From Gammaproteobacteria bacterium (GTDB lineage: Bacteria > Pseudomonadota > Gammaproteobacteria > Ga0077536): a DNA stretch of 64,000 bases. How positions within the stretch are numbered: position 1 is the first letter of the stretch; every line of letters begins with the position of its first letter. The stretch spans positions 1-64,000 of the forward strand of contig JADLGE010000048.1 of assembly GCA_020849475.1 (NCBI GenBank). The letters are read 5' to 3'. The notes under the pieces were generated by a model. It had not been told where the DNA came from, made no database searches, and was given only the letters and a program-made list of their open reading frames with translations. The position numbers were made by a program, and so were the translations under genes. This document shows, piece after piece, positions 30,381 to 34,809 of this stretch.

Positions 30381-31289
30381 TCAAGCCGCACGCGGCGGCG
30401 GAAACACACTGGCGCGGCTCATGCTGGCCTGCATCGGCGCCTGCAGCGGACCTTCCAGCCATTTGGAGGTCGCGACCACCTTGGCAATGTCGATGCCGGT
30501 CTCGAAGCCCATGCGGTGCAGGAGGTATAGCACGTCCTCGGTGCCAACATTGCCAGTCGCGCCCGGCGCGAAGGGGCAACCGCCGACACCCCCGCAGCTC
30601 GCGTCGATGATGCGCACACCGCTGTCGACCGCGGCGTAGACATTGCCAATGCCGGTGCCGCGGGTGTTATGGAAATGCATGCGCAGCGGCGTCGCGCCGA
30701 TGTGCGGACGCACCGCTTCAATCAACCGTTTGACGTCCGACGGCACCGCCACGCCGATGGTGTCGGCCAGCGCGATCTCGTCGACACCCATGGCGTGCAG
30801 TCGCGCGGCGATGGCCACCACGGTGGCGGGCGCCACTTCGCCTTCGAAGGGGCAACCGAAAGACGCGGCGATGGTCACGCCGAAAAACCTGCCGGCGTCC
30901 TGCGCGCGGCGCGCCAGGGAGGCGATGAGATCGAGCATGTCGGCCGCGGTCTTGCCCTGGTTGCGCAGGCAGAAGCTGTCGGTGGTGACGGCCGCGCAAT
31001 TGATTTGTTCGACGCCGCTCGCCAGCGCGCGGTCGAGGCCCTGCTCGTTCAACACCAGGCCGATGTAATTCACGCCTGCGCGGCGCGGCAGGCGCGCGAT
31101 GATGGCGTCGGCATCGGCCATCTGCGGCACGCGCTTGGGATTGACGAAACTTGCCACCTCGAGGCGCCGCACGCCGGCATCGAGCAGGCGCTCGATGAGC
31201 GCGAGCTTGGCCTCGGTGTCGAGCAACTGCGGCTGTGCCTGCAGGCCGTCACGCGGCCCCACTTCGACGATTTCGACCCGCTCACCCAT
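30381..31289 (-). CDS. Hydroxymethylglutaryl-CoA lyase
   Basis: This lyase splits HMG-CoA into acetyl-CoA and acetoacetate, the last step of leucine breakdown. It is a metal-dependent TIM-barrel enzyme: EVGPRDGLQ at the N-terminus, the metal-binding pair in [10 protein letters not shown] and the catalytic-cysteine loop [15 protein letters not shown]. It has 302 residues. I chose ATG 31289 because AGGAG lies eight bases before it; a GTG at 31298 overlaps that ribosome site. Other leucine-degradation genes are not adjacent. The symbol mvaB is used for such genes but not assigned here. Confidence 0.93.
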
Positions 31290-31450
31290 GTCATCCACTC
31301 CTGCTCACGATTGTCTGTCGCATCGCGACCCTGCGCGATTGTAGCCAAAGCAGGCGCCACCAGGCACGGCGCAAAATCCGCGTCGCGGGCGTGGAATCAG
31401 CGCCCGCGCGAGCCTCTATACTAGGCCGAAGGCAACAGCCAGGAGTGAAC

Positions 31451-32803
31451 ATGGCGTCTTACGATTACGATCTCTTCATCATCGGTGGCGGCTCGGGCGG
31501 CGTGCGCGCGGGCCGCATGTCAGCCAGTTTCGGTGCGCGTGTGGCGATGGCTGAAGAACGCTATATGGGTGGCACCTGCGTCAACGTCGGCTGCGTGCCG
31601 AAAAAATTATTCGCCTACGCCGCGCATGTGCATGAAGAAGTGCACGATGCCGCCGGCTTCGGCTGGAAGATAGCCGACGGCAGTTTTGACTGGCCGACCC
31701 TGGTCGCCAACAAGAACAAGGAGATCGAGCGCCTGAACGGCATCTATCAACGCCTGATGGACAACGCCGGCGTGACGGTGTTGCACGAACGCGCCGTCAT
31801 CAAGGACGCCCACACCGTGACGGTCGGCGGGCGTGATATCAGCGCCGAGCGCATCCTGGTGGCGACCGGCGGCTGGCCTTTCGTGCCGGACTTTCCCGGC
31901 AGCGAACTCGCCATCAATTCCAACGACGCGTTCTTCCTCGAGCGCCTGCCGAAGCGCGCGGTGGTGGTCGGCGGCGGCTACATCGCGGTTGAATTCGCGG
32001 GCATCTTCAACGGTCTCGGCTGCGACACCACGCAACTCTATCGCGGGCCCTTGTTCCTGCGCGGCTTCGATGACGATGCACGGGTATTTCTTGCCGACGA
32101 AATGAAGAAGAAAGGTGTGAAGCTGTGCTTCGACACCGACGTCACGCGCATCACCCGCGAAGCCGACGGTCTGCGCCTGGCGCTCAACGACGGCAGCACC
32201 CTCGATTGCGATCTCGTGATGTACGCAACCGGGCGTAAACCCAACAGCGCCAATCTCGGCCTCGAAGCCTGTGGTGTAGCGCTCGATGCCAACGGCGCGG
32301 TCAAGGTCAACGGCAACTACCAGACCAGCGTGCCTTCGATTTACGCCATCGGTGATGTTACCGACCGCATCAACCTGACGCCCGTCGCGCTGGCCGAAGG
32401 TATGGCACTGGCCTGGCATCTGTATCGCGACCGCGAGCGCCCTGTCGATTACGAATTTGTACCGAGCGCGGTGTTCAGTCATCCGAACCTCGCCACCGTC
32501 GGCTACACCGAGGCACAGGCGCGCGAAAAGTTCGGCGCAGTGACGATATTCAAATCGACGTTCACGCCGCTCAAGCACACGCTGTCAGGCTCCAAGGAAA
32601 AGACCTTGATGAAACTGGTGGTCGATAGCGCCAGCGATCGCGTGGTCGGCGCCCACATGATCGGTCCCGACGCGGGTGAATCCATCCAAGGACTGGCCGT
32701 TGCCATCAAGGCCGGCGCCACCAAGGCAATGTTCGACCGCACCATCGGCATCCATCCGACCTCGGCCGAGGAATGGGTGACGATGCGCGAACCGGTGGCC
32801 TGA
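31451..32803 (+). CDS. gor: Glutathione-disulfide reductase
   Basis: Gor reduces oxidised glutathione with NADPH in the cytoplasm. The 450-residue flavoprotein has an FAD-binding [16 protein letters not shown], the redox-active disulfide [13 protein letters not shown], a second dinucleotide fold [14 protein letters not shown], and the C-terminal dimer-interface motif [14 protein letters not shown] with the catalytic histidine. AGGAG precedes the ATG. A peroxiredoxin gene with an in-frame TGA starts 69 bp downstream on the same strand. Confidence 0.95.
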
Positions 32804-32872
32804 GATCCGTATGACATCTCACGGTCGTAACGAGAAAGACAGCCGGCAGGTTTTCAACAGGAGCAAACAGCC

Positions 32873-33412
32873 ATGGGCATGATGAAACTACGCGCGCTGG
32901 CAGCCTTGCTGCTGGGCGCGATGACGGGTCTGGCAGGCGCGTCGGCACAGGCCGCCGAGCTTGCCGTCGGTGACGTCGCACCTGACTTCACCCTCGCCGG
33001 CTCTGACGGCAGACAGCATCACCTCGCCGACTACCGCGGCACCGCCGTGGTGCTGGCGTGGTTCCCTAAAGCCTTCACCGGCGGCTGAACCGCGCAGTGC
33101 AAATCACTCCGTGAGAGTGGTGCATTGCTGAAGAGCTTCAAGGTCGCCTATTTCATGGCGAGCACCGATGACGTCGCGACCAACACCAAATTCGCGGCCG
33201 AGACCGGCGCGGATTTCCCGATACTCGCCGACCCGGACAAGAAAGTCGCCGGCGACTACGGTGTGCTGGGCATGATGGGCTTCGCGTCGCGCTGGACGTT
33301 CTATATCGACAAGGACGGCAAGATTGCCTACATCGACAAAGACGTGAGCGTGGTGAAAGCCGGCGCCGACACCGCGGCGCGCCTCACGGCTCTCGGCGTG
33401 GAAAAACGCTGA
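32873..33412 (+). CDS. Exported selenocysteine peroxiredoxin (TGA 33086-33088 read as Sec72)
   Basis: Seen: an ATG with AGGAG nine bases upstream opens a frame with a signal peptide (LLLGAMTGLAGASAQA), VAPDFTLAGSDG and VLAWFPKAFTGG. It meets TGA at 33086, then continues in the same frame as TAQCKSLRESG through a full peroxiredoxin C-terminal half (FPILADPDKKVAGDYGVLG, TFYIDKDGKIAYID) to a stop at 33412. The TGA replaces the peroxidatic cysteine expected after AFTGG. A SECIS-like hairpin follows at 33095-33127. Known: Sec-containing peroxiredoxins exist in bacteria. Inferred: a 179-residue periplasmic selenoprotein reducing peroxides, with Cys76 as possible resolving residue. The alternative is a nonsense-mutated pseudogene or base error. 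Confidence 0.78.
33095..33127 (+). promoter_or_regulatory. Candidate bacterial SECIS element in the peroxiredoxin mRNA
   Basis: Beginning six nt after the TGA, CAGTGCA (33095-33101) pairs with TGCATTG (33121-33127) with one G-U. After an AA bulge, TCACTC (33104-33109) pairs with GAGTGG (33115-33120), including one U-G. The apical loop CGTGA (33110-33114) has G in second position. The loop starts 21 nt after the TGA. This fits the described bacterial SECIS geometry (loop 16-37 nt from UGA, a G among the first two loop bases). Confidence 0.65.
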
Positions 33413-33418
33413 ATGACT

Positions 33419-33446
33419 GGTAGGTGCGAATTCATTCGCACCTACC
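33419..33446. repeat. REP-like palindrome, copy 2
   Basis: GGTAGGTGCGAA, TTCA, TTCGCACCTACC: 12-base perfect arms around a 4-base loop. It matches the copy at 24230 except for one loop base. It lies between the convergent peroxiredoxin and MATE genes and overlaps the MATE stop codon. Confidence 0.85.
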
Positions 33447-34809
33447 TATGCGGCTGACGCGCCTGCAACAGGCGCCGCGTCAGGAGCACGAAACGACCGA
33501 TAAGTAGAAACGACGCGACCCACAGCGCGGTGGTCAGCCCCACCCAGATGCCGGCCGCGCCTGCGTCGCTGTAGCGACCGAGCGCGTAGGCGAGCGTGAA
33601 TCCCACACCCCAGTAATTGAGCGCATTCAATACCAGCGGCACGCGCGTGTCTTTCATGCCCCGCAGCGCGAAGGCGGCCGCCACCTGCAGGCCATCGGCC
33701 ATCTGCAGCGCCGCGCCGACCTTGAACAGAGTCAGGGCAATCGCGACCACCGAGGCGTCGGTGGTGTAGAGCGCGATGATGCGCGGCGCGAACAGCCAGG
33801 TGCTGAGCGCCGCCGTGGTGGTGCACACGCCGCACAACACAAACCCTGTATAGCCAAGCCGCCGCACGGCCACGAGATCGCGCCGCCCGACGGCCTGACC
33901 GACGCGCACCGTCAACGCCATGGCAAATCCGAGCGGCGCCATGAACACGATGCCGCAGTAATTGAGCGCAATCTGGTGGGCGGCCACCGCCGCGCTGCCG
34001 AGCGTGCCCATCAGCATCGCCACCGCCGTGAACAATCCCGATTGCAGGAACAGCGAAACGCCTATCGGCAGGCCCAGGGCCACGAGCCGCTTGATGGCGA
34101 CGTAGTCGGGCGCTTCCAACCCTTGCCAGAGATTGAAACGTTGGTAGTGCGGTGAGGCAAGTGTGTGCCCACCCAACAGCGCCAGCATCACCCAGAAGCT
34201 GAGCGCGCTGCCCAGTCCGCAGCCCGGTGCGCCCAAGGCCGGCATACCAAGGCCACCAAACAGAAAGAGATAATTGAGCAGCACGTTGAGCGGCGATACC
34301 GCAGTGACGACGGTCATCACCGGCACGGTGCGGCCGACACCTTCATTCATCTGCTTCAAGGTGTGATAACCATAGGCGCCCGGCACACCCCAGGACAGAA
34401 AATCGAGATAGCCCTGCGCCAGCACGGCCACTTCGTGTTCGATGCCAACCACGACGAATAGCGGCGCCATGTGGCGCATCGCGGTCATCACCAACAGCGA
34501 AATCAAGGCCGCCAACCACAGGCCCTGACGCGTGTCGTGACCTATCTCGGCATCGCGTCCGGCGCCGAAGTGCTGCGCAACGGTCGGCCCCAGCGCCATG
34601 AGCGTGCCGAGCCCTAGCAGAAACAGCGCTATCCATACGCCGTTGCCTATCGCGACCCCGGCCAGTTGCACCGAGCCCAGACGCGCCGCCATCATGGTGT
34701 CGGCCACACCGACACCGATGCTGGCGAGATTGTTGATGATGAGCGGCGCGCCCACCGTCACCAGCGAGCGCAGGTCGGCTCGCAACTGCGCGAGCCAGGG
34801 CGAAGTCAT
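33442..34809 (-). CDS. MATE family efflux transporter
   Basis: MATE proteins export cationic drugs or metabolites in exchange for sodium or protons. The 455-residue protein has about 12 helices in two halves, with family signatures at GAPLIINNLASIGVGVADTM, PLNVLLNYLFLFG and the second-half VAAHQIALNYCG. ATG 34809 gives the usual N-terminus; an in-frame extension to 34896 overlaps the ABC ATPase gene. It starts 31 nt after that gene, so it is probably co-transcribed with the ABC importer. Confidence 0.9.
   Translation of the reverse strand: MTSPWLAQLRADLRSLVTVGAPLIINNLASIGVGVADTMMAARLGSVQLAGVAIGNGVWIALFLLGLGTLMALGPTVAQHFGAGRDAEIGHDTRQGLWLAALISLLVMTAMRHMAPLFVVVGIEHEVAVLAQGYLDFLSWGVPGAYGYHTLKQMNEGVGRTVPVMTVVTAVSPLNVLLNYLFLFGGLGMPALGAPGCGLGSALSFWVMLALLGGHTLASPHYQRFNLWQGLEAPDYVAIKRLVALGLPIGVSLFLQSGLFTAVAMLMGTLGSAAVAAHQIALNYCGIVFMAPLGFAMALTVRVGQAVGRRDLVAVRRLGYTGFVLCGVCTTTAALSTWLFAPRIIALYTTDASVVAIALTLFKVGAALQMADGLQVAAAFALRGMKDTRVPLVLNALNYWGVGFTLAYALGRYSDAGAAGIWVGLTTALWVASFLLIGRFVLLTRRLLQARQPHR

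Follow-up and report, generated by a model that had tools for sequence, protein, structure and literature searches.

A hairpin downstream of an in-frame TGA as a probable bacterial SECIS element in a gammaproteobacterial peroxiredoxin gene

From sequence comparison, we consider it highly probable (roughly 94%) that a hairpin following the in-frame TGA of a peroxiredoxin gene in the window (the whole 64,000-nucleotide stretch of DNA that was analysed) is a functional bacterial SECIS (bSECIS) element for selenocysteine (Sec) insertion, comprising positions 33103-33121 and, in this genus, extending to 33094-33128. With the ribosome at the UGA at 33086-33088, SelB carrying Sec-tRNA-Sec would bind the stem-loop through the G-U of its loop and would deliver selenocysteine in place of termination. 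The predicted product would be a PrxQ/BCP-like peroxiredoxin, either periplasmic or secreted, with Sec as its peroxidatic residue. The features concerned are as follows.

32873-33412, + strand: putative Sec-peroxiredoxin gene, from the ATG at 32873 to the TGA at 33412, with AGGAG at 32859-32863
33086-33088, + strand: in-frame TGA at the peroxidatic position (P65-xxx-T69-xx-U72), aligned with the peroxidatic Cys
33103-33121, + strand: conserved core of the proposed SECIS, a 7-bp upper stem (33103-33109/33115-33121) plus the apical loop
33110-33114, + strand: apical loop CGUGA, starting 21 nt past the TGA, with G second and then U
33094-33128, + strand: extended hairpin with an 8-bp lower stem, an AA bulge and the upper stem; minimum free energy (MFE) -18.3 kcal/mol

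In translation, the frame at 32873-33412 is broken only by the TGA at 33086-33088, and decoding this TGA as Sec (residue 72) gives a product of 179 residues that begins with a signal-peptide-like stretch. The product matches the Pfam AhpC-TSA domain (4.6e-30) and carries T-x-x-U at the peroxidatic site, within the motif PKAFTGGU. It is closest to PrxQ/BCP proteins by its best NCBIfam and PDB matches while scoring below the curated cut-offs of all named subfamilies, and its solved relatives in the PDB include 3drn and 1xvw. P65, T69 and R140 are invariant (91 of 91 homologue rows). Measured against the nearest relative, dN/dS is 0.04 before the TGA and 0.045 after it, and the latter value implies that the downstream part remains under strong purifying selection at the protein level.

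The residue at +4 from Sec is also a Cys (residue 76, 33098-33100), kept in 72 of 72 Sec proteins and in 18 of 19 Cys proteins. The sequence-only reading had pointed out that this codon lies inside the SECIS region, which is correct, but because the residue is shared by all Sec forms and nearly all Cys forms, we ascribe its conservation to the protein and not to the RNA. PrxQ/BCP proteins usually have their second Cys at +5, and the +4 Cys may act as the resolving residue in a peroxiredoxin subfamily of its own.

Secondary structure was predicted with RNAfold for positions 33086-33130, with 200 shuffled sequences as a control. The MFE and centroid structures were alike (-18.3 kcal/mol, z -3.6), and one of the 200 shuffles was equally stable. 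The lower stem pairs 33094-33101 with 33121-33128 and the upper stem 33104-33109 with 33115-33120, while a seventh upper pair, A33103-U33121, competes with A33101-U33121. This is the shape that had been proposed from the letters alone, folding having been set beforehand as a possible refutation: the AA bulge, the 6-bp upper stem and the 5-base loop CGUGA, with its G at the second position and its start 21 nt past the TGA, were all recovered, as was the lower stem, at 8 bp rather than the 7 originally described. The hairpin was kept in contexts of 45, 165, 245 and 345 nt with stem pair probabilities of about 0.9-1, except for the competing pairs at the bulge; in a 105-nt context it was weaker, with pair probabilities of about 0.7 in the upper stem and 0.24-0.7 in the lower stem.

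Nevertheless, as a single sequence the hairpin is not strongly above chance, and the published bSECIS model is permissive. When the peptide was recoded with synonymous codons, 5.8% of the recodings folded equally well and 49% satisfied the model; of the window's 1,895 TGAs, 19% also satisfy it. The agreement with the model claimed in the sequence-only reading is thus real, but weak as evidence when taken by itself, and we rejected the single-sequence z-score as proof, synonymous recodings often being equally stable. An Rfam search of 32800-33450 returned no SECIS and no other credible family. The fold and model evidence on one sequence being modest, our claim rests on comparison with homologues, across which the upper stem stands far above chance.

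Homologues were drawn from a scan of a genome collection (80 loci) and from the bacterial family to which the window belongs; as these sets partly overlap, distinct sequences were counted. The 103 hits comprise 84 with TGA, which span several phyla, and 19 with a Cys codon, and within the window's family the TGA is carried by 20 of the 21 genomes with a match. Covariation was assessed in an ungapped alignment of 67 distinct TGA sequences, with 18 Cys sequences forming the second set. Among the TGA sequences, 94.5% of upper-stem cells are paired, and double compensatory changes occur at five of the seven pairs (for example, G-C to A-U in 10 sequences and C-G to U-A in 6). The 35 double-change cells compare with a shuffled mean of 7.1 and exceed nearly all of 500 shuffles, a control that ignores relatedness. 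Sliding the register of the upper stem gave at most 65% pairing, in every case below the true register. In contrast, the Cys sequences are 59.5% paired, about their shuffled mean, and have no covariation; RNAalifold likewise recovered the upper stem in the TGA set, and it is absent from the Cys set. A SECIS should show compensatory change in UGA genes but lack it in Cys genes, and this is the outcome of the covariation check that accompanied the original proposal. At least six upper-stem pairs are present in 93% of TGA hits, versus 13% expected under synonymous recoding.

The loop points in the same direction. Its G[G/U] is found in 72 of 72 Sec rows versus 3 of 19 Cys rows, and the Arg codon within it is CGU in 55 and CGG in 9 unique sequences (64 of 64), with CGC and CGA at 0; elsewhere in the same genes CGU and CGG together make up 35% of CGN codons, and CGC is the commonest. 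The encoded Arg is kept in 70 of 72 Sec proteins versus 7 of 19 Cys proteins, many Cys forms having Ala. Since Sec forms keep the Arg far more often than Cys forms do, it is probably the RNA, and not the enzyme, that demands it, and the loop-held Arg codon would neatly illustrate how an RNA signal can dictate the sequence of a protein. The full bSECIS model was satisfied by 63 of the 84 TGA hits, some homologues with AT-rich stems folding weakly. A tree with six changes of label offered only three supported independent contrasts between Sec and Cys forms, too few for significance; on average 2.7 of them ran as expected and none ran the other way. A class-wide survey found homologues in 5 of 369 genomes, too few for an association test, and no close homologue of the peroxiredoxin was found in plasmid records.

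Several loci deserve separate mention. A Verrucomicrobiales metagenome-assembled genome (L034) has a peroxiredoxin gene with TGC at the position in question and yet a full 7-bp stem and CGUGA loop; judging from its sequence, this stem-loop looks like a fossil SECIS left after a recent Sec-to-Cys change. Two loci (L046 and L070) each hold one Sec copy and one Cys copy of the peroxiredoxin, and another (L055) holds two Sec copies.

The source genome, a 5.4 Mb draft that is 96% complete, contains intact selA, selB, selC and selD, the genes that together define the Sec-decoding trait. The matches for selA (596 bits), selB (431 bits), selD (424 bits) and tRNA-Sec (65 bits, Rfam) are all above cut-off, and the genes are clustered on one contig (C26) that also holds an MsrA/MsrB gene and an esterase-like gene. 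The former is a fusion gene situated between tRNA-Sec and selD (C26:30000-46000, L006); the start listed for it overlaps the tRNA gene, so the true start lies further downstream. Across genomes, selB was found in 31 of 34 with the Sec form versus 11 of 16 with only the Cys form (p 0.09), and no selB hit was obtained in 3 Sec-bearing genomes of this 34-genome set or in 2 of 20 in the family set (62% and 87% complete). We rejected selB co-occurrence as proof, since it is too weak (p 0.09 and 0.37) and suggestive only.

PF00578 and PF02627 searches of the source genome returned five further redox genes with an in-frame TGA at a redox motif (L115-L119; contigs C47, C3, C51, C83 and C119), so that the genome has at least five further selenoprotein candidates. 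Three of them encode AhpD-like CxxU proteins and one a UPYC peroxiredoxin-like protein; the fifth encodes a WGSYUGC protein, which comes near the NCBIfam family WAxxUGC_long (295 bits versus a cut-off of 300). In four of these genes, a stem of at least 5 bp carries a G[G/U] loop 19-24 nt past the TGA, compared with 7.4% of background TGAs, and two of those four loops also start with CGUG; in the gene on C119 the stem is only 4 bp. Similar hairpins across TGA genes point to a shared SelB recognition rule. Formate dehydrogenase was considered as an additional selenoprotein and rejected, with no match above cut-off and no TGA.

The TGA could in principle be a nonsense codon, arising in a pseudogene or from a sequencing error, with the hairpin a chance by-product of coding. 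How readily TGAs and synonymous recodings pass the bSECIS model (19% and 49%, as above) lends this some plausibility for the hairpin, but a chance structure does not account for stem covariation that is lacking in Cys genes, and a pseudogene is difficult to reconcile with the same TGA in 84 homologue hits from several phyla or with full Sec machinery in the genome. Sequence comparison also yields a dN/dS of about 0.05 past the TGA (0.045), which speaks against a pseudogene. We regard this explanation as very improbable, and the preference for active Sec insertion over a pseudogene voiced in the sequence-only reading is supported by covariation, Sec machinery and low post-TGA dN/dS together. 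Equally improbable, in our view, is that the UGA is read through in some other way, by near-cognate Trp or Cys insertion or as a reassigned codon, with a hairpin that only stimulates readthrough in a general way or acts as a pause site. A stable stem 3' of a stop codon can raise readthrough, so a hairpin at this place is compatible with such an account; yet the other genes in the window and in the sel cluster use UGA as a normal stop, and further points against this account are that the TGA falls on the catalytic Cys/Sec residue, that the loop G-U and 21-nt spacing are SelB-type features, and that a tRNA-Sec above the Rfam cut-off is present.

A different question is whether function requires the complete two-stem hairpin, the AA bulge and both stems included. 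In this genome the arrangement is the one of minimum free energy, and the nearest relative (L007/L090) keeps it with a G-U to A-U change; these two genomes are the only ones in which the lower stem is complete. In the family as a whole, however, the lower stem is 38% paired, its covariation is within the range of controls, and it gains pairs when slid by +3, while RNAalifold retains the upper stem alone. We therefore excluded the lower stem from the conserved element, leaving the two-stem requirement unlikely and this portion of the original description true of the local fold but not of the family. To judge by the alignment, neither the lower stem nor the AA bulge is a general part of the element; both are genus-specific, and the lower stem may add stability locally. 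The reading we prefer remains a SECIS whose conserved core is the upper stem and its loop.

Directly upstream of the peroxiredoxin gene lies a second redox gene.

31235-32803, + strand: glutathione-disulfide reductase gene (PRK06116, 614 bits; TIGR01424, 608.6 bits, above cut-off)

Its end is 69 nt from the peroxiredoxin ATG, and its true start is near 31457, since homology begins at residue 75. A reductase gene adjoins the TGA-containing peroxiredoxin in 13 other genomes of the family, a conserved gor-prx pairing that, from gene order, hints at a glutathione-linked function. More speculatively, and with considerable doubt, the pair could form a family-specific selenoenzyme module in which a Sec peroxiredoxin with an unusual +4 Cys, possibly exported, would be recycled by glutathione via the reductase and act in a manner resembling glutathione peroxidase.

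We would like to note that a standard gene caller would split the peroxiredoxin gene or label it a pseudogene, where the SECIS evidence marks a selenoprotein. The published bSECIS model has a hairpin right behind the UGA within the coding sequence, places the loop 16-37 nt from the UGA and allows a loop of 3-9 nt and an upper stem of 4-16 bp, with G as the first or second loop base, in most cases with G or U next to it, and an MFE of at most -7.5 kcal/mol (PMC13188914). The hairpin described here agrees on every count (spacing 21, loop 5 nt, upper stem 6-7 bp, CGUGA, -18.3 kcal/mol) and has no feature outside the model, its 8-bp lower stem being an addition of this genus. A selenoprotein family of Sec-containing peroxiredoxins with TxxU has likewise been published: it is abundant in marine metagenomes, in the selenoproteomes of the Sargasso Sea and GOS (PMC1088965, PMC2398784), and a genome survey places it in several bacterial genomes (PMC1794560). 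The published family (COG1225/PF00578, TxxU) has the same PF00578 fold, and TGGU fits TxxU with Sec as the peroxidatic residue; by description, the present case differs in coming from a gammaproteobacterial family and in its signal-peptide-like N terminus, invariant +4 Cys and reductase neighbour. PrxU (NF040737), named for a Sec peroxiredoxin, belongs to the same peroxiredoxin family, but the product scores 40.9 bits against a cut-off of 270 and so falls outside it. The best NCBIfam match is to PrxQ/BCP (PRK09437, NF006960; E 1.5e-23), again below the cut-off for membership (83.4 bits versus 140), and the product differs from PrxQ/BCP in having Sec in place of Cys and its second Cys at +4. 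Sec peroxiredoxins and bSECIS elements are both already known, and this hairpin is a well-supported new example.
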